Shown here piece by piece: positions 2,768 to 29,884 of a stretch of DNA of 64,000 nucleotides (within the stretch, counting starts at the first letter, position 1; the number at the start of each line of letters is the position of its first letter). The stretch spans positions 1 through 64,000 of the forward strand of contig JAJFTF010000024.1 of the NCBI GenBank assembly GCA_021373185.1, written 5' to 3'. Made by a program: the position numbers and the translations under genes. The DNA comes from Betaproteobacteria bacterium. GTDB taxonomy: Bacteria > Pseudomonadota > Gammaproteobacteria > Burkholderiales > Sulfuricellaceae. A model generated the notes under the pieces. That model worked only from the letters and a program-made list of their open reading frames with translations. It was not told where the DNA came from and searched no databases.

Positions 2768-3889
2768 ATGTCGAAACATGAAACTTTTTATGACGTAATC
2801 CGCCAACGCGGCGTCTCCCGCCGCGAGTTCCTGGGGTTTTGCGCCGTCACGGCGACCACGCTGGGGCTGGGACCCGCAGGAGCCATGACGGTAGCACACG
2901 CGATGGAGACCAAGCCGCGCATTCCGGTGCTGTGGTTGCACGGCCTGGAATGCACCTGCTGCTCCGAGAGCTTCCTGCGTTCCGGCCATCCGCAGGCCAG
3001 CGAGATCATCACCAGCATGATTTCGCTCGATTACGACGATGTCATTATGGCGGCAGCGGGCGACCAGGCGGAGGAAATCGTCCACGATATCATTCGGGAT
3101 TACCGGGGCGAGTACATCCTCGCCATCGAGGGCAATATTCCCCTCGCCAACGACGGCATGTGCTGCATCGTTGGCGGACGACCTTTCCGCCAGCAGTTCG
3201 ACGAGGCCGCGAAACACGCCAAAGCCATCATCGCCTGGGGTACCTGCGCTTCCTCCGGCTGCGTGCAGGCGGCGCGCCCCAACCCCACCAAGGCAACGCC
3301 GGTTCATAAGCTGGTCAGCCACGTGCCGGTGATCAACGTACCCGGCTGTCCGCCCATTGCCGAGGTAATGACCGGGGTGCTGTCCTACATCCTGACCTAC
3401 GACCGGCTACCCGAACTCGACAACCAACTGCGCCCCAAGATGTTCTATTCCCAGCGCGTCCACGACAAATGCTACCGCCGCGCCCATTTCGACGCCGGTC
3501 AGTTCGTCGAAAAGTGGGATGACGACGGCGCTCGTCAAGGCTGGTGCCTGTACAAAATGGGCTGCCGCGGTCCGACCACCTACAACGCTTGCGCTTCCAT
3601 GGGCTGGAACGAAGGCACCAGCTTTCCGATCAAATCCGGCCATGGCTGCATCGGCTGTTCGGAGGAGGGATACTTCGATCGCGGGCCATTCTACGAGCGC
3701 CTGCCGGACATGCAGCAATGGGGCGTGGAATCCAACGCCGACAAGATCGCCGTGGCGGGCGCTGCCGTTCTCGGCAGCGCCATTGCTATCCAAACCGGCG
3801 CAACGCTGGTCAAACGCATCCTGACCGGCAAGAGCTTGAAAGACACCCCTATCGAGGACGCACCTGAAACACCAGGAAACCAAAAATAA
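2768..3889 (+). CDS. hupS: Membrane-bound [NiFe] hydrogenase small subunit, oxygen-tolerant (group 1d) type
   Basis: This is the electron-transfer subunit (HupS/HoxK/HyaA) of a periplasmic H2-oxidising enzyme. The twin-arginine signal SRREFLGF has its arginines at 18-19, with likely cleavage after AHA (residue 45). In mature numbering the proximal-cluster cysteines fall at 17, 19, 20, 115, 120 and 149 (precursor 62, 64, 65, 160, 165, 194). Cys19 and Cys120 are the two extra residues that distinguish the oxygen-tolerant [4Fe-3S] cluster. Distal and medial cluster Cys/His residues follow in the C-terminal half. A hydrophobic helix near 325-345 anchors the C-terminus in the membrane. It is separated from hupL by 2 bases. 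Length (373) is normal. Confidence 0.97.
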
Positions 3890-3891
3890 TC

Positions 3892-5694
3892 ATGAGTCAG
3901 ATCATCACACCCAACGGCTTCACTCTCGACAATTCCGGGCGCCGCATCGCCATTGACCCGGTCACCCGTATCGAAGGGCATCTGCGCATCGAGGTCAACG
4001 TCGATGGCAACAACGTCATTCGCAATGCGGTTTCCGTCGGCACCATGTGGCGTGGCCTGGAGCCGATTCTCAAGGGACGCGACCCGCGCGACGCATGGGC
4101 TTTTGTCCAGCGCATCTGCGGGGTTTGCACCGGGGTGCATGCCCTCGCCTCGGTACGCGCAGTGGAAGATGCGCTGGGCATTGCCATTCCGGCGAACGCC
4201 AACACCATCCGCAACATCATGCACCTGGCCCTTTATGTGCATGACCATCTGGTGCATTTTTACCATCTCCACGCCCTTGACTGGGTGGACGTGGTTTCGG
4301 CCCTGTCAGCCTCGCCCAAGGCGACGTCCGAACTGGCACAATCGATCTCGTCGTGGCCCAACTCTTCCCCCGGTTATTTCAGCGACGTCCAGAAAAAAAT
4401 CAAGCAGATGGTCGGCTCCGGCCAACTGGGTCCGTTCCGCAACGGCTACTGGGGGCATTCGGCTTACAAGCTGCCGCCGGAAGCCAACCTGATGGCGGTC
4501 GCACACTATATCGAGGCGCTCAATTTCCAGCGCGAAATCGTCAAGATCCAAGCGGTATTCGGCGGCAAGAACCCCCACCCGATGTGGCTGGTCGGCGGCG
4601 TGCCCTCGGCCATCAACGTGCATGGCGCCGGCGCAACCGGCGCGGTCAACGTCGAGCGCCTCAACCTGGTGGCGGATATCGCCGAACGCACGCTGACCTT
4701 CATTTCGCAGGTCTATATTCCTGACCTGCTGGCCATCGCCTCCTACTACAAGGACTGGTTCAAACTGGGCGGCGGACTGGCCAGCCGCAATCTGCTCTCC
4801 TATGGCGAATTTCCTTCGCTGGCCAATGACGATTCCAACCGCAGCCTGATGTTGCCGCGCGGCGCAATCCTGAACGGCGACCTGACACACTTGCACGAAG
4901 TGGATCTCAGGGACCCGAGCCAGATCCACGAATTCGTCGAGCATTCCTGGTACAGCTATCCCGACGAAAAAGCAGGATTGCACCCCTGGGAAGGAAAGAC
5001 CGACATGACTTTCCGCCTCGGACCAAAATCCGTTGGCGGCAAGAACGGCGAGCGCATCGAATCGATCGACGAAAACGACAAATACAGCTACATCAAGGCG
5101 CCCCGCTGGAAGGGCAACGCCATGGAAGTCGGGCCGCTGGCGCGGATGGTGATTGCCTACGCTGCCGGCGACAAGCGGGTCAAGGAATTGGTCGACGGCA
5201 CCCTGAAAAAACTCGATTTGCCGCTGACGGCATTGTTCTCGACCATGGGGCGCACGGCGGCGCGTGGCCTGGAAGGCCTGTGGGCGGCGGAAAAACTCAA
5301 GGCAGAAATCGCCCTGTTGCAGGCAAACATCAAAGCCGGCAACACCGCCACTGCCAATACCGAGAAATGGGAGCCCAAGACCTGGCCCGCTGAAACCAAG
5401 GGCGTTGGCTACGGCGAAGCGCCACGCGGCGCGCTGGGGCACTGGATCAGGATCAAGGAAGGGAAAATCGACAATTACCAGTGCGTCGTCCCCACCACCT
5501 GGAATGCCAGCCCGCGTGACTCCGCCGGCAACATCGGCCCCTATGAAGCATCGCTGCTCGGCGTACCGATGGCCAATCCGGCCAAGCCGCTGGAAATTCT
5601 GCGCGTGATCCACAGTTTCGACCCCTGCCTGGCTTGCGCCACCCATGTCATCGGCCCGGACGGCGAATTGCTGACCGAAGCAAAAATACTGTAA
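3892..5694 (+). CDS. hupL: Membrane-bound [NiFe] hydrogenase large subunit
   Basis: This is the catalytic subunit that holds the Ni-Fe(CN)2CO centre and splits H2. Ni ligands are the N-terminal RICGVC (Cys76, Cys79) and the C-terminal DPCLAC (Cys579, Cys582). The last 15 residues after His585 are the extension removed by the maturation protease, encoded here by hupD. The N-terminal [10 protein letters not shown] motif is typical. At 600 residues it is the usual length of group 1 enzymes. It has no signal peptide and should be exported with the small subunit through the Tat system. Confidence 0.98.
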
Positions 5695-5703
5695 GGCTAA
5701 GCG

Positions 5704-6402
5704 ATGCCCAAGTTCATCCCTTATCACAGAATGCCCGAAAAAGGCTTGTTGCCGGCGGTGATGGTTTACGGGCCGGGCATTCGCATCTGGCACTGGCTGA
5801 ATGCTTTATCGGTGGTGGTGCTGGCGATAACCGGTTATTTCATCGGCATACCACCGCCATCGGCGATCGGCGACACATCGAGCCTGTACGTGATGGGCTG
5901 GATCAGGCTTTTACACCTGGCATTCGGCTACACCTTCGCGCTGCTCGCAATCATGCGTTTGTGGCTGGTGTTCGCCGAAGGCGGGATATCCCATCAGCTT
6001 TTCCTGCCGGCTATCTGGCGCAAAGTCTGGTTCGATGGCTTCCTGCGCCAGATTCAGTGGAACCTGCTGCTGGGTGGGCCGTTGCGCTACGTCGGGCTTA
6101 ATCCGCTGGCCAACGTCGCCATGCTGACCATGTTCGTCATCCCCGGTGCAATCATTATCCTCACCGGTTTCGCCATGTACGCCGAGGTCACGGGCCACGA
6201 TAGCTGGCAGTATCTCCTGTTCGGCTGGGTAACCATGCTGTTCGGCAATACGCTGGATCTGCACGTGTTTCATCGGCTGGCGATGTGGGTCATGGTGTGG
6301 TTCTCCATGGCACATATCTACATCGCCGTACGCGAAGACATCCTGTCGCGCCAGACGGTGGTCAGCACCATGCTGTCCGGCGAACGGCAGTTCAGGGATT
6401 GA
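5704..6402 (+). CDS. hupC: Hydrogenase b-type cytochrome subunit
   Basis: HupC (HoxZ/HyaC) is the di-haem membrane cytochrome that anchors the hydrogenase and passes electrons to quinone. The 232-residue protein has four predicted membrane helices. Candidate haem histidines lie in RIWHWLNA (first helix), LLHLAFGY (second helix) and HVFHRLAMWV (last helix). It follows hupL by 9 bases and ends 2 bases before the GTG start of hupD, so it is in the same operon. Confidence 0.95.
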   Translation: MPKFIPYHRMPEKGLLPAVMVYGPGIRIWHWLNALSVVVLAITGYFIGIPPPSAIGDTSSLYVMGWIRLLHLAFGYTFALLAIMRLWLVFAEGGISHQLFLPAIWRKVWFDGFLRQIQWNLLLGGPLRYVGLNPLANVAMLTMFVIPGAIIILTGFAMYAEVTGHDSWQYLLFGWVTMLFGNTLDLHVFHRLAMWVMVWFSMAHIYIAVREDILSRQTVVSTMLSGERQFRD

Positions 6403-6404
6403 AG

Positions 6405-6887
6405 GTGACAGCAGCGGACACAGTAGTGCTGGGTGTCGGCAATCTGTTGTGGGCCGACGAAGGTTTCGGCCCCAAGGCGGTTGCCCGGATGATCGCAACG
6501 GAAAAAATTCCCGCTGGCGTCGAAGTATACGATGGCGGCACCCAGGGCATGTATCTACTGCCGATTATCCAGTCGGCGCGGCGCCTGCTGGTATTCGACA
6601 TCGTCGATTTCGGCGCCGAACCGGGGCACATCGTGGTACTGCGCGACGGAGAAATCCCGGCTTTTTTCGGGCAACGCCCGCTGAGCCTGCACCAGACCGC
6701 GTTCACCGACGTGCTGGCGGCAGCGGAGTTGACCGGGGGAATGCCTGAAGCGGTAACGCTGGTGGGCGTGCAACTGGAGGACATCGACGAGTGGGGCGGC
6801 AGTTTGACGCTCACTGTCGCCTGTGCAATGGACGAAGCCATCCGCATCGGGCTTGGCGAACTGGCCGTTTGGGCCGCAAAGAGGTAG
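6405..6887 (+). CDS. hupD: Hydrogenase maturation endopeptidase (HupD/HyaD)
   Basis: This nickel-dependent protease trims the C-terminal tail of HupL once nickel is inserted. The GTG at 6405 is chosen as start because AGGG lies 7 bases upstream and the protein then opens directly with the conserved [16 protein letters not shown] stretch. The nickel-sensing acidic residues are in WADEGFGP and VFDIVDFG, with a downstream His in LSLHQTAF. The length is 161 residues. A TTG at 6399 overlapping the hupC stop is an alternative start. Confidence 0.94.
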
Positions 6888-6892
6888 GCAAA

Positions 6893-8530
6893 ATGAACAA
6901 CAATCTCAGCACCAACGACGATGGTTTGAACACGCTGGGCCGACTGTGCGTGGGCCTGTTCCATGCTGTGGACAACGTCCGCATGTTCCGGGTGGCGCAC
7001 ATTATCACCCTGCTGACATTCCTGATGCTGTTCGCCGGCGTGGGCGCCACGGTACTCACCTTCAAGTCGGTGGTCGAAATCGGCAATGTCTGGCGCAACT
7101 ACGATACCGGGCTGGCGCGTCGCATCGACCTGCTCGGAAACTTCCAGCATCACCTCGGCTATGACGGACTATCCCAGCACTGGCCAGCCGCCGTGGCGGG
7201 CGACCCGGCAGCGCGGCAAGCGGTGAATGGCGACATCGCCAAGGTGCGCGAGGGCATCCCGGCTTTTTTGCTGGCCAAGCCGACTGACAGCGAAAAGGCC
7301 GATCTTGCCATCCTGGAAAAAACGCTGAAAGCTTACGAACAGGCGCTGGCCAGCGGGGAAAAGAAAATCGATGACAGCGCTGCGATTGCGGCGCTGGAGC
7401 ACATCAAGCACGCCCTGCAGGATCAGCGCAAAGCCGGCGCCGATGCGGTTGAGGACGCGATCTGGACACTCTCCGCCACGGTTGGCGGCGTCATGTTCAT
7501 CGCCTGCTTGTTCCTGATCCTCTTCGGCTTGTTCTCGTTCTGGTTCACCCGTTTCCGTGTGGCGCAACCGCTCAAGGAAATCAATTCGACCATGGGTGTG
7601 CTCGCCAACGGCGAAACCAACGTGGCCGTGCCTTTCACCCGCAAGCTCGATGAAATCGGGGAAATGGCGCGCTCCGTCCAGGTGTTCAAGGACAATGCCA
7701 TCGTCAAGGGACGCATGGAAACGCAGAAAAAACTGGTCACGGAAAACGTCAACCGCATCACCCAGGAATTGGCCGGACTGACCAATACGGTGCGCAATCT
7801 GATGAACGAGCAATCGTCGGCAACCGCCAGCATGTCGGCGGCGACCGAACAGCTTTCGGTGAGCATCGACCAGGTTTCCCAGAATGCCGGCAGCGCCCTG
7901 ACGCTGACGCGGGAAACTGCCGACGCGGTCGATCAGGGCACCAAGGCGGTGAATGAAACCATCGTGGCGATGGAAGAAACCTCGCACCTGGTCAGCCTAG
8001 CTGCGGAAAAAGTGCTCGAACTCGGCACCCAGAGCGAGCAGATTCAAGCCATTGTCGGCAGCATCACGGGCATTGCCGAACAGACCAACCTGCTGGCGCT
8101 GAACGCCTCGATTGAAGCGGCACGCGCCGGGGAATCCGGTCGCGGCTTTGCCGTGGTAGCGGATGAAGTGCGCAAACTAGCCGAGAAATCCACCCAATCC
8201 GCCGCCGAAATTGGCGCCATATTAACCAGCGTTCAGGAGCAGGTCGGCATTGTTTCCGGAGAAATCCAATCCGCATCGGGCAAAGCGCAGGACAGTGTGG
8301 CGCAATCGCGCGTAGTCGAACAGGCGCTGAAGCAGATCGAAAATCGCTCCGCCCAGGTGGTTAATGCGGTGGAAGACATCGCCAATGCGGCCAGGGAGCA
8401 AACCAGCGCGGGTTACGACATCGCCCGCAAGGTGGAAACCGTTGCGGCATCGTCGGAAAACACCAATCAACTGATTGGCGACGTGGACAAACTGGCTAAC
8501 GACCTGAATCAGAACGTCTCGAAATTGTAG
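6893..8530 (+). CDS. Methyl-accepting chemotaxis protein encoded in the hydrogenase operon
   Basis: This is a 545-residue chemoreceptor starting at ATG 6893, 5 bases after hupD, behind GAGGTAGG. A first membrane helix lies at about 34-57, followed by a roughly 130-residue periplasmic helical region. The second membrane helix is at about 190-213 and a HAMP domain follows. The long signalling domain has the conserved hairpin tip ([20 protein letters not shown]). It should feed CheA/CheW, which are not in this window. Its tight position between hupD and the nickel permease suggests co-expression with the hydrogenase. What it senses is unknown. Confidence 0.95.
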
Positions 8531-8632
8531 GCGCTTGCAGGAGCCGAGCATCTGCTAAAATGACTTGAGCCACTGCCTTCTGGTTTTGGGCAATGTTCGT
8601 TTTTGGCATGGAAATATTTAAAGGGAATCGGC

Positions 8633-9454
8633 ATGGAAAACCTGCCCCATGACTGGCTGGCGTTGCTGGCTTTGGTGTTCACGCTCGGCATGAAGCACGG
8701 GCTGGATCCCGACCATCTCGCCGCCATCGACGGGCTGACCCGCTTCAACGCCGCCAGCAGCAAGCCACGACTATCGCGCTGGTCTGGCCTGCTGTTTTCT
8801 CTGGGACACGGCACAGTGGTGATGGCGGTAGCGGCGCTGGTCGGCATCTTCGCCAGACATTGGAATATTCCGGTCTGGATCGAGGATCTTGGCGCCTGGA
8901 TTTCCATCCTGTTCCTGCTGGCGCTCGGCACCGTGAATCTGGTTGCCGTATTCAGAACCGCGCCCGACGAAATAGTTAAAATGATCGGTCTGAAAGGCCG
9001 CTGGCTGAAAAAATTGAGCCAGGCCAGCCATCCCGTCTTGATCGCCTGCGTCGGCGCGCTGTTTGCACTTTCCTTCGATACCCTGAGCCAGACCGCGCTG
9101 TTTTCCCTGACCGCGTCCAGCATGGCGGGCTGGATATTCTCGGTGACGCTCGGCATGGTGTTCATGCTCGGCATGATCGCAACCGACGGCATCAACGGGC
9201 TGTGGATCTCGCGCCTGCTCAGCCGTGCCGACCAGCGCGCGCTCATCGCTTCGCGCGTAATGGGATTAGCGGTGGGCGGCTTAAGCATCCTGGTCGGGTT
9301 ATTCGGTATCGCCAAATATTTCGTTCCTGCCGTTGCCGTTCGCAGCGAGGGGCATGAACTGATGATGGGACTGGCCGTGATCGTCATCGTGGCACTGAGT
9401 TTTTATCTTGCCTTGCGGCTGGCGCACAGAGGGTCGCTCGTGCCGCCAAAATAA
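8633..9454 (+). CDS. Nickel/cobalt permease, NiCoT (NicO) family
   Basis: This 273-residue membrane protein with about 7-8 hydrophobic segments imports Ni2+. The family signature HGLDPDHLAAID (H-x4-DH) is near the N-terminus, with a second conserved LGHGTVV segment. ATG 8633 is chosen because AAAGGGA lies 6 bases upstream; a TTG at 8603 has no such support. Its place between hupS-hupL and hypC-hypD-hypE argues that it supplies nickel for the hydrogenase rather than cobalt for cobalamin. Confidence 0.9.
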   Translation: MENLPHDWLALLALVFTLGMKHGLDPDHLAAIDGLTRFNAASSKPRLSRWSGLLFSLGHGTVVMAVAALVGIFARHWNIPVWIEDLGAWISILFLLALGTVNLVAVFRTAPDEIVKMIGLKGRWLKKLSQASHPVLIACVGALFALSFDTLSQTALFSLTASSMAGWIFSVTLGMVFMLGMIATDGINGLWISRLLSRADQRALIASRVMGLAVGGLSILVGLFGIAKYFVPAVAVRSEGHELMMGLAVIVIVALSFYLALRLAHRGSLVPPK

Positions 9455-9528: not shown

Positions 9529-9765
9529 ATGTGCCTGGCTATTCCCGCCCTGGTGGTGGAATTATTGGAAAACGACATGGCCATGATCGATGTCGGCGGC
9601 GTGCGCAAGGCGATCTCGCTGGCGCTGGTGGATGACGTGTGCGTCGGCGACTATGTCATCGTCCATGTCGGCTTTGCGCTCAACCGTCTCGACCCGGAAG
9701 AGGCGGCAAAGACACTGGCCCTGTTTGCCCAGATCTATGAGGAGTTAGGCGCTTCACCTCAATGA
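9529..9765 (+). CDS. hypC: HypC, hydrogenase maturation chaperone
   Basis: HypC carries the Fe(CN)2CO unit with HypD and docks on the large-subunit precursor. The 78-residue protein begins MCLAIP, where Cys2 is the essential residue. It has the usual OB-like core (MAMIDVGGVRK). Its stop overlaps the hypD start by 4 bases, indicating translational coupling. Only one HypC/HupF-type chaperone gene is seen in the window. Confidence 0.97.
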   Translation: MCLAIPALVVELLENDMAMIDVGGVRKAISLALVDDVCVGDYVIVHVGFALNRLDPEEAAKTLALFAQIYEELGASPQ

Positions 9766-21675: not shown

Positions 21676-21714
21676 TTGAAAACACCCTGCATCCGTAAGC
21701 AAGGAATCCTGACC

Positions 21715-22548
21715 ATGCAACCCCAGTCCGCCCTCTTTGAAGAGCATGAAATACGTCGCGTGTATGACGAGGCGACGGAAATCTGGTGGTTTTCGGTGGT
21801 GGACATTGTGCAGGTGCTCACCCAGCAGCCGGATTATCAGACGGCCAGAAACTACTGGAAGGTGCTGAAGAACCGGCTGAGCAAGGAAGGCAGTGAGTCG
21901 GTTACAAAATGTAACCGACTGAAATTGCCTGCCGCTGATGGCAAAAATTACCTTACCGATGTCGCCACCGCCGAAACGCTGTTACGGCTGGTGCAGTCCG
22001 TGCCCAGCCCGAAGGCCGAGCCGATCAAGCTATGGCTGGCGAAGGTGGGCTATGAGCGGATGCAGGAAATGGCCGACCCGGCCCGCTCGCTGGATCGCGC
22101 CCGCGAGACCTGGCAAAAACACGGGCGCAGCGAGAAGTGGATACAACAGCGCATGACCGGGCAGGAGACGCGCAACAAGCTGACCGATTTTTGGGCGAAC
22201 CACGACATCAAGGAAGGCGAGGAATTCGCGATCCTCACCAATATCATTCATCAGGAGTGGGCCGAGGTGGATGTGAAGGCGCACAAGACGATGAAGGGTT
22301 TGAAGTCGCAAAACCTGCGCGACCACATGAGCGAGGCGGAGCTGATTTTTACCGCACTGGCGGAATTGTCCACGCGCCAAATTGCCGAGAGCATGGGAGC
22401 GACCGGCATGAACGAGAATGAATCGGCAGCGAAAACCGGCGGCGGCATTGCCAAAAAAGCACGGCTGGAGCTGGAAAGCAAGACCGGCAAGAAAGTGGTG
22501 TCGGCAGAGAATTATTTGCCGCCCACCAAGAAGAAATTAGTCAGCTAA
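21715..22548 (+). CDS. BRO-family (Bro-N domain) protein, phage antirepressor-like
   Basis: This 277-residue protein has a Bro-N domain in its first 110 or so residues (IRRVYDEATEIWWFSVVDIV, then DYQTARNYWKVLKNRL). Such domains occur in phage antirepressors and in DinD-like proteins. The remainder is helical and charged, with RMTGQETRNKLTDFW, a segment seen in chromosomal relatives. ATG 21715 follows AAGGAA. No phage genes lie beside it, so it is a solitary accessory gene, perhaps a relic of mobile DNA. The function is not known. Confidence 0.82.
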   Translation: MQPQSALFEEHEIRRVYDEATEIWWFSVVDIVQVLTQQPDYQTARNYWKVLKNRLSKEGSESVTKCNRLKLPAADGKNYLTDVATAETLLRLVQSVPSPKAEPIKLWLAKVGYERMQEMADPARSLDRARETWQKHGRSEKWIQQRMTGQETRNKLTDFWANHDIKEGEEFAILTNIIHQEWAEVDVKAHKTMKGLKSQNLRDHMSEAELIFTALAELSTRQIAESMGATGMNENESAAKTGGGIAKKARLELESKTGKKVVSAENYLPPTKKKLVS

Positions 22549-22885: not shown

Positions 22886-23743
22886 TTAATATTTCTCAAT
22901 TTCACCAAAGAGATTACAGAATTTTGATGCTCCATATAAATCAGGAAATAACGTTAGATGGTTAATATTCATTCTGTTTAGTGTTTGTAAACATTTTTCT
23001 CGCTCTTTATTTGGAATGAATATTTTAATAAGTGTTAAGCCGTCTCCTTCAGTAGGGTTGGCTTTTACCCAAGAATCGAGAGATTTACCAGAGTAGGCAC
23101 GTGTAAACAATCCCCCTTGATTCACAAGGCGTTGATTTTCATCCGACATCGGACGAATAAATTCAACTTGTGGCGCTGTCTCTTTTTGCGATGCCATATG
23201 AGCAAGATGGTTTATTACTTTTTCCGTCGAAGTGATTTTATGCATACGTACATTCTCTGCATTTTCGACTATCTTTTGTACTTGTTTTTCAATAGTAGGT
23301 CTATGTAGTGCATATATAGCCCGATTTTTCGTTTGCCTAGCCCCATGGTTAATAAAAGCAAAATATGCCGCTACAAATGGGGATGATGTCCAGTCTAGTA
23401 GAGGGGTTGAGAAACCATGGTGTTGACCAAGGGCCCACCACTCATTTTCACTTTCAATAATGCGGGGATTTTGGCCTCTTCTTCCTCTCGCTGCATATTT
23501 AAATCGTTCAAGATGGGAATGTATAAAACCGTATTGTTTGGTTTTTGCGATTTTTGCATTCTTAATAAGTCGATCCAGCGTTGATGCAAGATCCCAGTTT
23601 TCACATCTCTGGCCTCGCCAGACATATTCATCAAATTCACGCATCTCTTCGTGAACAAATGCTGAAAAATCATCCCAAGAGGAAAGATGTACTTCCCCGT
23701 AACCTTTGCTATCATTAGATGCTTTCCAATTTCTTTCAGCCAT
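22886..23743 (-). CDS. FRG-domain protein
   Basis: This 285-residue protein has an FRG domain: FDEYVWRGQRCENWDLASTL near residue 40 holds the conserved Arg-Gly, followed by WWALGQHHGFSTPLLDW. FRG proteins are of unknown biochemical role and often occur in variable or defence-like islands. ATG 23743 is chosen, with an AGG 6 bases upstream. The gene is markedly AT-rich compared with everything around it and has different codon use, suggesting recent horizontal gain. It stands alone between two dispersed repeats. Confidence 0.85.
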   Translation of the reverse strand: MAERNWKASNDSKGYGEVHLSSWDDFSAFVHEEMREFDEYVWRGQRCENWDLASTLDRLIKNAKIAKTKQYGFIHSHLERFKYAARGRRGQNPRIIESENEWWALGQHHGFSTPLLDWTSSPFVAAYFAFINHGARQTKNRAIYALHRPTIEKQVQKIVENAENVRMHKITSTEKVINHLAHMASQKETAPQVEFIRPMSDENQRLVNQGGLFTRAYSGKSLDSWVKANPTEGDGLTLIKIFIPNKEREKCLQTLNRMNINHLTLFPDLYGASKFCNLFGEIEKY

Positions 23744-23777
23744 TGACCTGCTCCCATTAAACCTAGAATCTAATAAG

Positions 23778-23852
23778 GCCCGCGTAGGGCGCAATCCTTA
23801 TTGCGCCGAATGAAAAATCCGGTGCAATGCGCTACGCTTATTGGCACCCTAC
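23778..23852. repeat. Dispersed extragenic repeat unit
   Basis: On the minus strand it reads GTAGGGTGCCAATAAGCGTA, then a GCATTGCACC and GGCGCAATAAGG block, ending in GCGCCCTACGCGGGCC. The two halves (GGTGCAAT... and GGCGCAAT...) form an imperfect inverted repeat. Similar units are known between genes in many proteobacteria. The gap between the FRG gene and the helicase gene is otherwise empty. Confidence 0.6.
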
Positions 23853-23880: not shown

Positions 23881-26800
23881 CTAATCAACCTCAAACACCA
23901 ACCCATTCCCAAACACCAACACCGCCCTAACCGTTTTGGCCGCAAACACCCCGCCCATGGCGGAAAGATACTCCCGCATCTGCCCCAGATAAGGCTTGGC
24001 GCAAGCCACCAGATTCCCCTCCTCCGCCCGTTCGGCAGCCTTGAAATCCAGAATCCAGACGCTGTCCTCGAACTCAACCAGCCGATCTAGCCGCCGGCTT
24101 TCGCCTGCCGCAGTCCGGTAGGGCAGTTCCTTCCAGGCATTGAGATAACACGCCGGGTCGAAGAAACGCTGCAAATGCGGCGCCTGCATGAGGTGCGTGG
24201 CATCCCGCCAGAGCGCGTCGAACGTGCCTTCATCCACGTCCAGCTTCTCTTGCAGCCAAGCCCGGTCAAACACCGCCGCAGGCGGGGCGATCCATTCCAA
24301 CAGCGCGTGCAGCCGGATACCATGGCGTTGCGCCGCGGTGAGGTTCTGGCTGGTGCGTTTGCCGGTAGGCATAAGCGGCGCAGAGCGGGCATGAGAAACC
24401 GGGGCGGCGGCTTCCGGTGCCGCCGCGCCCGCAGGCAATAACGGCATCTGGCCGAGCTCGCAGATTTCCTTCACTTCTTCGCCGGCCACGGCGTTCCAGA
24501 TTTTTCCGTGCCAGCCCTCCGTCGCGCAACGTGCCGATTCGCAACCGCTGACAATCAGCGCCTGCCGGGCGCGGGTCATGGCGACATACAGCAGGTTGAG
24601 GTCTTCGCGCCGCTCCTGTTCGGCCTCGGCATCGAACACCGGCTGCCACTGCGCGGCGCGTTCACGCTTGCCGGCGTAGAGGAAGAAATTCTGCGGCTTG
24701 GCGCTTGCCGGCGGCCAGTCGAGCATGGCCCGGTAACCGCGCTCGTTGCGGGTTGCGGCATTGGCGTCGAGCAGCCAGACAATCGGCGCTTCCAGCCCCT
24801 TGGAGCCGTGGATAGTGAGGATGCGCAGCGCATTGCCGGCATCGCCGACGATGCCTTCGTCGGGCGCTTCTTCGGCGCGCGCGCGGCGCAACTGCTGGAG
24901 CTCGTTGATGAACTTGGGCAGGCTGGGGTAGCGGCCACTGTCCAGCTTCAGCGCCTGTTCCATGAAGGCATGGAGGTTGGACTGCACCGCGCCGCGCATC
25001 GCTTCCGGCACGGCGGCATGGTAGCGCTGCAGCAGCTCGCCTTCGAAATAGATGCGGTCGAGCAGGTCATGCACCGGCAGCGTGTCGGTCAACGCCAGCC
25101 AGCCTTGCAGCAGATCCAAGGCGCGGCGCAATGCAGGACTGGCCTGCTCGCGCCCGGCCACGGCATGCAGGCGCGCCCACCAGGAACCTTCGGCCTCACT
25201 CGCCAGCGCCATCAAATCCTCGTCGGCGCAGGCGATCAGCGGCGAACGCAGGGTCTGTGCCAGGCACAAGTCGGCGAACGGGGTGATGAGGAAGGTCAGC
25301 AGCGCAATCAGGTCGCGGCATTCCAGCGTTTCCAGCAGGCCGCCCTGACGCGAGCTGACATAGGGGATGCGCGCATCGCGCAGCGCCCTTTCGTAAATAT
25401 CCAGACGGGTGCGGCTGCGCTTCAGCAACAGGATGTCGCGGAATTCCGCCGGGCGCATTTCGCCGTTTTCGCCCGCCACCGCCCAATTGCCGACGATGCT
25501 GCGGATATTGTCCGCCAGTTGCCGCGCCTCGCGCTCGACGCGCTGGTCTTCGACCTCATGCAGCGGCTCAATCAAAGGGTTGCGCAAACTCATCGCCATT
25601 AAAGGCGCTTCGGCATCTTCCCCCGCTACGGCCAAGGGCAACACTTCTACCCGGCCCGGCAGTTCGCCATGAAAAGCCTGATGCGTCTCGAAACCGGTGA
25701 ACGCCGGCTCTTGCTCGAACAGGCTGTTGACCGCCGCCAGCACCGGCATGGCACTACGGCGCGAAACATTCTGCTGCAGCCGGACTGCGCCATAACCCTG
25801 CTCGAGGAAATCGGCGGCAATGCCAAACAGGCGCGCATCGGCGCGGCGAAAACGGTAGATTGCCTGCTTCGGGTCGCCCACCAGAAATACGGTGGGCGCG
25901 CTGCCGGCACCCGCCGAAGCGTCCAGCCACGAGCGCATGATCTGCCATTGCAGCGGATTGGTGTCCTGAAACTCGTCAAGCAGGATGTGGCGGTAGCGCG
26001 CGTCGAGCTTGTACTGCATGTACTCGGCATGATCGGAGCGGTTGAGCAGCTGGTGGACGCGCCATTCGACGTCGGTGAAATCGACCGACCGCCGCTCTTC
26101 CTTGAGACGCTGGTAGGCCGCCAGAAATTCTGCGCCGCAGCGCAGGGCAGCACGGTTGAAGCGATAGGCGGCTTGGGCGGCGAGCTGGTCTTTCACCTCT
26201 CTGATATGCGCGGAAAACGCCCGGTGCAAATCCAGAAAACGTTCGGTATCCGCTCCCATCCTCCCGGCCAGTGCCTTGGTGTATTCACGCTTGCGCGGTT
26301 CGCCTTCCTTGGTCAGGAACACCAGAGAGAACGCCTCGAAATCGTGTCCCGCCCAAGCGTCGCGCAGCTTTGCGGAGCTTTTCAAATCGGTGGCCGTGCC
26401 GCGTTCCAGCAAAGCGGCAAATGCCTCGGAATCGACCGCCAGCGCAGCATTGGCAAACAGCTCGGCAACCACGTCCCGCTCCGGCGCCACACCGAGATCG
26501 CAACGTAGCGCTTCGGCGGCGAAATGCGCCGGGTCGGCGGCCTCTGCGGTATAAGCCCACCATTCGGCGCGCTTGGCGACAAAATCGAGCAGCAGGCTGC
26601 GGGTGTTGTGCAGGCCATGCTCGGCGAACAAAAAATCCAGCGCTTGTGCTGTTTCGCATTCCGGCTCGACGCGCAGTTCTTCGGCAAACAGTTGCCAGGC
26701 CTCTTCCAGCAGGGTGGAGGTCTGATCAAGCAGACCCCAGTCGCCGCCGACGCCGCTGTCCAGCGGCGCACGCTGGAGCAGTTGCAGGAACCAGCCGTGA

Positions 26801-27174
26801 AAAGTGTTGATGGCAATGCCGGGCTGGGCCGTCAGGAAAACCTCGAACAGGCTGTGCGCGCGCGGCAGCAACGACTCGATTTCACCTTCCGGCACGGCAC
26901 GCTCGCGCAGGAATTGCCTGACCTCGTTATCCGGCGCCAGCGCCAGCAAGCGCAGCCAGTCGCGCAAACGCTACGCCATTTCCTGCGCCGCCTTGCGGGT
27001 GAAGGTGATCGCCAGAATTTCGGACGGCGCGGCGCCGGCCAGCAGCAGACGCACGATGCGCGACACCAGCAGCCAGGTCTTGCCGCTGCCGGCGCAGGCT
27101 TCGACTACCGCCGAGCGGGCGGGATCGAGCGCGACGCGGTTAATTTCATTGGATTCACTCGACATCATGGTCAT
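23881..27174 (-). pseudogene. addA: AddA-like UvrD-type helicase/nuclease, interrupted by an in-frame TAG
   Basis: The locus encodes a RecB/AddA-like double-strand-break repair helicase-nuclease of about 1096 codons, broken by TAG at 26971-26973. The first 67 codons (26974-27174) hold the Walker A motif [11 protein letters not shown] and [12 protein letters not shown]. After the stop the same frame continues as RLRDWLRLLALAP to 23881, with no shift. The downstream part has motif II (LLDEFQDTNP), motif III (VGDPKQAIYRFRRAD) and a C-terminal PD-(D/E)XK nuclease (LDRLVEF, WILDFKAAE). A single C-to-T change from CAG (Gln) explains the stop. A protein restarted downstream would lack Walker A. Its start overlaps the end of addB by 20 bases. 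Confidence 0.85.
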
Positions 27175-29884
27175 CCCGGTAATCCTTGCGGCACAGGCCG
27201 CTCATCTCGCACCAGTCGCAGGCTTGTTCGCTGCCATGGGCGGGCAGCGGCGCGGCGCAGTAGAGGGCGTTGAACAGCTCGCGCAGCCGCAGTTCGACCG
27301 CCTGGCTCAGCGCATAAATTTCGTCCTGCGGCACCGCCTTGATCTCGGCCTCTTCGTCCACCGGCACGAACGCCGCCTCGACCACCGCATCGGCCAGCAG
27401 CAGGGCATAGACCGGCAATTGCACATCCTCGCCCGGCTCTTTCAGCTTCTTTTGCAGGCCGGCGCGGCTCTGGGTCTTGTAGTCGAGCACGGCGAAGGCA
27501 ACTTCGCCATCGTCCGAGCGGGTGTCGACGCGGTCGATCCGGCCTTTCAGGGTAAGATTGCGCCCTTCGTCCAGCGCCAGTTCCAATGTGCGTTTCAGCT
27601 CGCCTTCGTGCCAGCGCCAGCCCTCCCGCTCGCGTGCAACCTGCCAGTCGAGATAGGCGGGTATGCACATTTCCCAGCGCAACGCCCAGGCGCGGGCGAG
27701 GTAGTCGGCCTCCAGCGCCTGCTTGAATTCATCCCGGCTGAGGTCGCGTAGCGCCTGTTCCAGTTCGGCACGCTGCTGACCGCCGATGACCGGGTAACGC
27801 CGGTGGAAGGCGTGCAGGATGGCGTGAACATGTTCGCCGTAATCCTTTTTCTCCAGCGCCTGCTGCACTTCGTCCATTTCGTTCAGGTGCAAAGCATGGC
27901 GCGCATAAAACTGGTAGGGGCAGGCCATCAGGCTGTTGTAGCCGCTGGCGGAAATCACCGGAGGGATCAGCTCATGCGGCAAGATCGGGCGCGAGGTCGG
28001 CGGCGGAGAATGGGGAACGCCGTGCTCTTCCGCCATCGCCTCAATCGACAGGCGCGGCAGCGCTGCGCCGTAAGCCAGCTCGTGAAACGCTTCCAGCCTT
28101 TCTATCCAGGGGCTGGCCAGGTTGGGCTCGGCGTTTTTCTGCGCCTGCCAGGTCACCAGCATGGCGCCGCAACTGGCCAGCAGCGCGGCAAAATCCAGCA
28201 TGGTCAGGCGCAACTCCTGCTCAAAGGTCGGCAGCCCCAGTTGCACCCGCACCGACTGGTTGAAAAAGGCGCTTTCCCGCCCCTGCCCCGGAAAGTGGGC
28301 GGCATCGCCGCCGGCGACGATCACGCCGTCGAAACGGCGCAACCGGGTGGCGCCAAGATGGGTGAACACCACCGGACTGCTGATGCCGGTATCGCGGAAG
28401 GTGGCGGCTTCGAGCTGGCCGTCGAGCCAGCGCCGCCATTCGCTCAGGGAGAACACGCCCTGGTCGCTGCCCAGCTCTTTTTGCAGGCGCGCCAGCAGCC
28501 GCAGCAATTGCTCCCCGGCCAAGTCCTGCGCCAAGCCTTGGCGCAGGCCGAGGACATCCAAGGCTTCGAGCAGGCTGGCAAGCCACGCCGAAAGAGGGCG
28601 CTTGCGCCCGCCAAACCCGGCCTGCGCCTGTTCCAGCCGCGCCAGCAGGTCGAGCACTTCAACTTCATCCTCGCGCCGCGCCAGATTGCGGTAATGGTGC
28701 AGCCCCGATACCACGCTGTGGCGGCGCACCAGTTGCTCCAGGCGATAAACGGCACGTTTGCGCGTAGCGGCATCCCAGTCGGAAAAAATCAGCGGCGACT
28801 TGAGCAGATCGAGCAGGTCGAGATGGTGAAAGCGGCTCGCCATGGCATCGAGCCAGCGCATGACGACGGCGCTCGCCGCCACGGTGGAGAATGTCCAGCC
28901 GGTTTCGTCCGCTACCAGGATCTGGCTGCGCTCCAGCAACGCACGGGCGCGCCGCGCCACCAGCCGATCCTGAACGATCACCGCGATGGCGGTTTTGCCC
29001 TGCCGCAACCAATCGCGAATGGTTTCGCTCAGTGCTGCGGCCTCCTGCTCCAGGCTATGTGCAGGGAACAGCGACAAGGTGGAATTCAGCGGGCTTGCCG
29101 GATGGCTGCGGTCAAAATCTGCGGCGCGTTCGCGCAGGCTCGGCGCTGTCTTTTCCGCCGCTGAATCCGGGAGCTGCCAGGCGGTTTTCAGCAATGCGCC
29201 AATCTCGTTAGCGGGAAAACTTTCATCGCAACCGAACAGTTTCACCGGCTGACGCTCGGCGTAACGGCGGAAAAAATCCTGTTCCATCGGCGTTAGGCCG
29301 GACAGGCCGACTGCATACAACGGGGCGCAAGCATCGTCCGCCAGCCGCCCCAGTCGCAGATGGTAAGCGGCGATAGCGTCCACGCTGTCGTCGCCATTCC
29401 GGCTCATGGCGTACCACAGCTCATGCACCAGGCGCGCCTCGAATTGCAGCGGCGTGCCGGCTCGCGCCTGATAGGCGTCCTCCAGCCAAGCCACGAACTC
29501 GGCATAGGAAGCCGGCAGGCTGGCGCCCTGCCGGGCAATATCGTCGAACAGGCTGAGCAGTTCGCGGCTGATATGCCATAAATCGGCGTCGGCAAACCAG
29601 TTGCGGCTGCGCAAGGCCTGATACAGCAGCGCCGCACGACAACTGTCGGGGGTGACGGGGCGATCCAGCGGCGTTGCTGCGGCCCATTCCGTCAGGGTAA
29701 TCATTCGCGGCAACAGCAGCGCTCTGCCAGCAACTGAGCACAGCGCCGCACCCAAGGCATCGGCGGCGTGGAAATTGGGCAGCAAAATAATCAGACGGGA
29801 CATATCCGGCAGGCGCGCCCGCTCGAGTGCGACGATCTCTCGCGCAGCGGCGTGCAGCAGACTGGATTCGGTGGGTTTAAGCAT
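27155..29884 (-). CDS. addB: AddB-like PD-(D/E)XK nuclease/helicase-related subunit
   Basis: AddB is the partner of AddA in resecting broken DNA ends before RecA loading. The 909-residue protein has an inactive-helicase-like body and a C-terminal nuclease domain with LKGRIDRVD and FAVLDYKTQ. An iron-sulfur cysteine set is formed by [11 protein letters not shown] and [10 protein letters not shown], typical of AddB. It is upstream of, and overlaps, the interrupted addA. Its own frame is intact. With AddA broken, the complex may not work as a helicase. Confidence 0.88.

Follow-up and report, generated by a model that had tools for sequence, protein, structure and literature searches.

The question raised by this locus is why a gene for a methyl-accepting chemotaxis protein (MCP) should lie within the structural operon of a [NiFe] hydrogenase. 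Movement toward hydrogen is often assumed, and to our knowledge no receptor for such movement is known in bacteria. A text search for a bacterial hydrogen-taxis receptor returned passing mentions only, and a literature search, which left subscription journals mostly uncovered, found no published account of a chemoreceptor in a hydrogenase operon; in one paper the terms 'hydrogenase operon' and 'methyl-accepting chemotaxis' both occur, unrelated to each other (PMC2628731). A receptor that is locked to one hydrogenase clade would make the hydrogen-taxis question directly testable, and would connect the energy metabolism of chemolithotrophs with their behaviour in habitats where H2/O2 gradients are steep.

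Operon layout and receptor architecture

The window, by which is meant the whole 64,000-nucleotide stretch of DNA that was analysed, carries five closely packed genes on the forward strand. The first, hupS (2768..3889), encodes the hydrogenase small subunit (Pfam), which has a Tat signal and the six-cysteine site of a proximal (4Fe-3S type) cluster. It is followed by hupL (3892..5694) for the [NiFe] hydrogenase large subunit, recognised by Pfam and by its RICGVC and DPCLAC motifs, hupC (5704..6402) for the b-type cytochrome membrane anchor (Pfam, TIGR02125), hupD (6405..6887) for a maturation protease of the HycI/HupD type (Pfam, NCBIfam) and finally the MCP gene (6893..8530), whose product of 545 amino acids was characterised by Pfam, hydropathy and AlphaFold2. 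The successive gaps are only 2, 9, 2 and 5 nt. The hupD gene has a GTG start at 6405 and a TAG stop at 6885-6887, after which the five nucleotides gcaaa lead into the ATG of the MCP gene at 6893, with the MCP TAG stop ending at 8530. A separate promoter for the MCP gene in the 5 nt behind hupD was considered and rejected, since so short a gap cannot hold one, and a sequence scan, which is a weak test, revealed neither a promoter-like site inside hupD nor a terminator-like site in the interval that follows the MCP gene (8531-8632).

Beyond this interval, and on the same strand, lie a gene for a NicO-type nickel/cobalt permease (8633..9454, Pfam) and then hypC (9529..9765, Pfam), the first of the hypC-hypD-hypE-hoxX maturation genes. 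The most likely NicO start is the ATG at 8633, 102 nt past the MCP stop, the mechanical list of open reading frames having placed it at a TTG at 8603 (72 nt). Immediately 5' of hupS, at 1641-2474, the window encodes a regulator with SnoaL-like and AraC-type HTH regions (Pfam), of which no counterpart lies close to the operon in the relatives examined.

The MCP has a short cytoplasmic N-terminus, a first transmembrane helix at residues ~32-57 (hydropathy peak ~30-57), a periplasmic part of about 137 residues (58-194), a second transmembrane helix at ~195-219 (hydropathy peak ~190-220), a HAMP domain (residues 222-268, E=4e-6) and an MCPsignal domain (residues 342-519, E=3e-38) with a canonical hairpin tip that is near-identical among the orthologs. 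Both hallmarks of a transmembrane MCP are thus present, namely the signalling tip and a periplasmic domain flanked by two membrane helices ahead of a HAMP domain. The claim of an earlier note, that a complete membrane MCP begins 5 bases past the hydrogenase protease gene, agrees with the coordinates, Pfam and hydropathy alike. In its arrangement of TM1, periplasmic helical bundle, TM2, HAMP and signalling domain the protein resembles the Tar/Tsr-type receptors, from which it differs in having no named sensor domain and no C-terminal NWETF-like pentapeptide, and in being encoded within a hydrogenase structural operon. Neither Pfam (at E<=0.1) nor NCBIfam assigns a sensor family to residues 58-194, and Pfam finds no PAS domain in the protein, which therefore does not qualify as an Aer-type PAS-FAD receptor. 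The window genome has 21 matches to the MCP signalling domain, and CheA and flagellin are encoded in all six genomes that bear the hydrogenase-linked MCP, which would be expected to couple to CheW/CheA and the flagellar motor.

A receptor tied to one hydrogenase lineage

The hydrogenase is predicted to be a membrane-bound uptake enzyme of the O2-tolerant type. The best PDB matches of HupS are R. eutropha HoxK and E. coli Hyd-1, and the six proximal-cluster cysteines of O2-tolerant enzymes are present in HupS of the window and of four relatives, at mature positions 17, 19, 20, 115, 120 and 149. The host genome also encodes another hydrogenase, of more distant kinship (61% HupL identity), in which ~2 kb separates the small and large subunit genes.

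Full-length orthologs of the MCP are found in six genomes (G000, G008, G013, G015, G055 and G203) from three families (f1, f35 and f20), the MCP-bearing genomes being few and mostly drafts or metagenome-assembled genomes (MAGs). When 61 relatives were searched with the complete MCP, five genomes, one of them the host's, had full-length matches (67-100% identity), and the remaining relatives matched over the generic signalling half only, at 42% or less. A profile of the sensor half (A2), run against 399 genomes of the order, added one ortholog, in G203, which belongs to a different family and has 59% identity; within the window's own family orthologs occur in 4 of 22 genomes. The same profile gave no further ortholog among 369 genomes of the class, and none was found in the viral contigs or plasmids searched. 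Those relatives that have public names are MAGs under the label Gallionellaceae, and the parts consulted of a pangenome paper on that family list HyaAB hydrogenases and do not mention linkage with a chemoreceptor (PMC10734462).

In all six genomes the MCP gene stands directly behind hupD and in the same direction. The spacing is 5 nt in the window, 6 nt in L054 (a short contig that starts within hupC, with hupSL outside it), 4 nt in L055, 9 nt in L056 and 5 nt in L057, and in L064 the two genes overlap by 28 nt. What comes after the MCP gene varies, and a NicO gene is found there in the window only. The occurrence of the block in three families with a rearranged downstream context means that the hupD-MCP linkage has outlasted the loss of other neighbours, and on this comparison of gene order the conserved unit is hupSLCD-MCP, with NicO and hypC outside it. 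The lack of conservation that might have counted against the linkage was accordingly not seen, whilst the hupD-MCP-NicO order anticipated in the earlier note is not kept, NicO being absent beside the MCP gene in all five other genomes. Its description of a receptor embedded in the operon, with the nickel permease and hypC after it, holds for the window and fails in the other five genomes, where another gene follows.

These neighbourhoods also bear on a nickel-sensing reading, in which the MCP would detect Ni2+ on behalf of a nickel enzyme and belong with the NicO and hyp genes that follow it on the same strand in the window. As that neighbourhood is not conserved (NicO beside the MCP in 0/5 other genomes), and no histidine or cysteine in the periplasmic part is invariant across the six sequences, the reading was rejected as very improbable, and the nickel-tuned taxis suggested earlier is disfavoured. 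In the genome from the third family (G203; L064, 9802-11590) a second MCP gene, convergently oriented, comes after the hup-linked one, together with a gene for a stand-alone Aer-like protein of the PAS type; these two are possibly a split aerotaxis receptor beside the hydrogenase receptor.

The association extends to the identity of the hydrogenase itself. A strong HupL match is present in 85 of the 399 genomes of the order, and the four in which HupL identity is at least 82% are exactly the four with the MCP, the next best being 71%. No MCP accompanies HupL at any of 60 further loci, 40 taken from the order search and 20 from the class search, which were examined for up to ~8 kb past HupL as far as each contig extended, some contigs ending early so that absence is unequally tested. 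Because 6/6 ortholog genomes have the MCP behind hupD and 0/60 other HupL loci have one, its placement is, on these counts, beyond chance. In a HupL tree of 65 rows the five MCP-bearing HupL sequences form one clade with 100/100 support and a long stem, on which the presence of the MCP is a single label change. The tree built from the MCP sequences is compatible with this one. The f35 member (G055), placed in another family by genome taxonomy, nests among the f1 members of the window family on the HupL tree, which suggests that the hupSLCD-MCP block has moved as a unit. The predicted co-expression of the MCP with the hydrogenase, put forward in the earlier note, is well supported by the tight conserved spacing and by the single origin with one hydrogenase clade.

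A single origin and a small number of genomes would also be compatible with inertia, the MCP gene having been inserted once behind hupD and kept by descent, functionally unconnected with the hydrogenase. Such hitchhiking is improbable, given that all six genomes retain a full-length, intact MCP, down to 59% identity, that the spacing has been kept when everything downstream has changed, and that the block is present in three families, with f35 nested inside f1 on the HupL tree.

The MCP-bearing hydrogenases share with the O2-tolerant membrane-bound enzymes R. eutropha HoxKGZ and E. coli Hyd-1 the six-cysteine HupS, the HupC cytochrome and the HupD protease, and differ from them in their separate position on the HupL tree and in other respects. 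At an equal HupL identity of 68-71%, comparison of MCP-bearing with MCP-less operons gives 43% identity for HupC, as against 59% among the MCP-less, and the corresponding values for HupS are 66% and 81%. A HyaE-type maturation chaperone is a usual, though not strictly defining, companion of an O2-tolerant membrane-bound [NiFe] hydrogenase. HyaE (PF07449) was found in both comparators and, genome-wide, in none of the six MCP-bearing genomes, two of which are only 80-89% complete. Moreover, where other operons have accessory maturation genes after hupD, this clade has the MCP. The low HupS and HupC identities at equal HupL, together with the absence of HyaE, indicate that the MCP-bearing clade is a distinct hydrogenase lineage in which the electron-output and membrane subunits have diverged. 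This divergence would be compatible with contact between HupS/HupC and the MCP, other causes being possible.

The periplasmic sensor domain

AlphaFold2, run with three sequences, predicts that the periplasmic part is a four-helix bundle, with pLDDT of ~78-88 over most of residues 70-180 and an overall mean of 66.5. By Foldseek and VIA the modelled bundle resembles the sensor domains of Tar, NarQ, PcaY and LytSN, which is a common fold. Assignment of a ligand class from the fold was rejected, since Foldseek and VIA match four-helix bundles in general and Z scores of ~11-13 are within the range that helical bundles reach through their common arrangement. A search of PDB sequences with the sensor profile gave only chance-level matches to ATP synthase epsilon.

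The sensor profile also matched three distant members of the class, one histidine kinase and two MCPs (L135, L136 and L137), which have a GYGGxIHxFKN motif. The recurrent helical sensor domain with GYGGxIHxFKNxVLR found in these kinases and receptors is without a Pfam model. Aligned by hhalign across 145 columns, the hydrogenase-MCP sensor and this domain are related with E=5e-13 and a probability of 97.9. The two share the W..Y, R..LL, GYGG-like and DD..A..AL positions, but the hydrogenase MCP is ~15 residues shorter ahead of its final periplasmic helix and has an (S/A)QHWPA-type sequence in place of IHxFKNxVLR. The IHxFKN motif itself is missing from the hydrogenase MCPs, which have LSQHWPA, LAQHWPA or LALQLPA instead, and with this replacement the sensor is, from its alignment, a divergent relative of the GYGGxIHxFKN family and no canonical member. 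Of the earlier description of a plain helical domain of about 130 residues with no named sensor domain, the helical character and the lack of a Pfam family stand, to which a distant relationship with an unnamed helical sensor family has now to be added.

The four-helix-bundle sensor domains of Tar, PcaY and NarQ bind small ligands, and the likeness of the modelled bundle to them favours a reading in which the MCP binds a periplasmic small molecule or ion relevant to life on H2, for example a respiratory electron acceptor or protons, co-expression with the hydrogenase only timing its appearance. The GYGGxIHxFKN relatives, which have no hydrogenase gene beside them in the short stretches examined, point the same way. 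A small ligand of this kind is nonetheless unlikely, for the MCP is tied one-to-one to a single hydrogenase clade and has lost IHxFKN, the most conserved site of the relatives, whose ligand it need not share. A bundle can also be read through a protein, for which LytSN offers a precedent, the title of its PDB entry naming a complex with the partner protein XylFII.

Special conservation of the sensor as a sign of a protein partner was rejected. In one pair of hydrogenase-linked MCP orthologs the sensor and signalling parts are 84% and 84% identical, and in three comparator MCP pairs from the same two genomes they are 86-90% and 90-92% identical, so that the sensor is not conserved above ordinary MCP orthologs and no special partner-protein constraint is visible. 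The second transmembrane helix is among the most conserved regions of the MCP (76-96%).

Proposed function and known systems

We favour, as somewhat more probable than the contrary, a role for the MCP as a transducer that is expressed with the hydrogenase and serves energy taxis linked to H2 or to the enzyme, with hupSLCD-MCP read as one inherited transcription unit. Such taxis would be the most economical function for an MCP made together with a hydrogenase. From the constant co-occurrence of the sensor and hydrogenase genes in the six related bacteria it is proposed that the MCP-bearing cells probably steer toward conditions where hydrogen is usable.

The five genes from hupS to the MCP would be transcribed as one unit and passed on as a block, to give a membrane-bound H2-uptake hydrogenase of the O2-tolerant type along with a dedicated transmembrane chemoreceptor. 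The periplasmic four-helix bundle, predicted to be on that side of the membrane where HupSL also lies, may receive hydrogenase-linked information in the form of H2 supply, the redox state of the hydrogenase or the delivery of electrons to quinone, and contact with HupS/HupC at the membrane is a possible route. The input would be signalled through HAMP to alter the activity of CheA, and motile cells would then steer along H2/O2 counter-gradients whilst the hydrogenase is being made. In a stronger form, which is offered tentatively and is less probable than not, the MCP would be a dedicated bacterial H2 chemoreceptor that reads a working respiratory hydrogenase by direct contact with the small subunit and the membrane cytochrome, enzyme and sensor making up one inherited module.

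In R. eutropha a [NiFe] enzyme is already known to work with a sensory transducer, the regulatory hydrogenase HoxBC being tied to the sensory kinase HoxJ (PMC6978683). Unlike that cytoplasmic sensor hydrogenase, which controls transcription, the enzyme in the window is a respiratory-type membrane hydrogenase linked to a chemoreceptor. The proposed output, motility steered by respiratory state, is that of the energy-taxis receptors Aer and TlpD (PMC6978683), although these sense in the cytoplasm whereas the window MCP lacks a PAS domain and has its bundle in the periplasm.

Elsewhere in the window are two candidate anti-phage defence genes, one for a Bro-N protein (21676-22548) matching the PADLOC candidate PDC-S13 (E=5e-119) and one for an FRG-domain protein (22886-23794) matching the PADLOC candidate PDC-S15 (E=5e-92). 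Their neighbours encode a UvrD-like helicase (23881-26967) and a PD-(D/E)XK protein (27155-29884), which together look like an AddAB-type pair.
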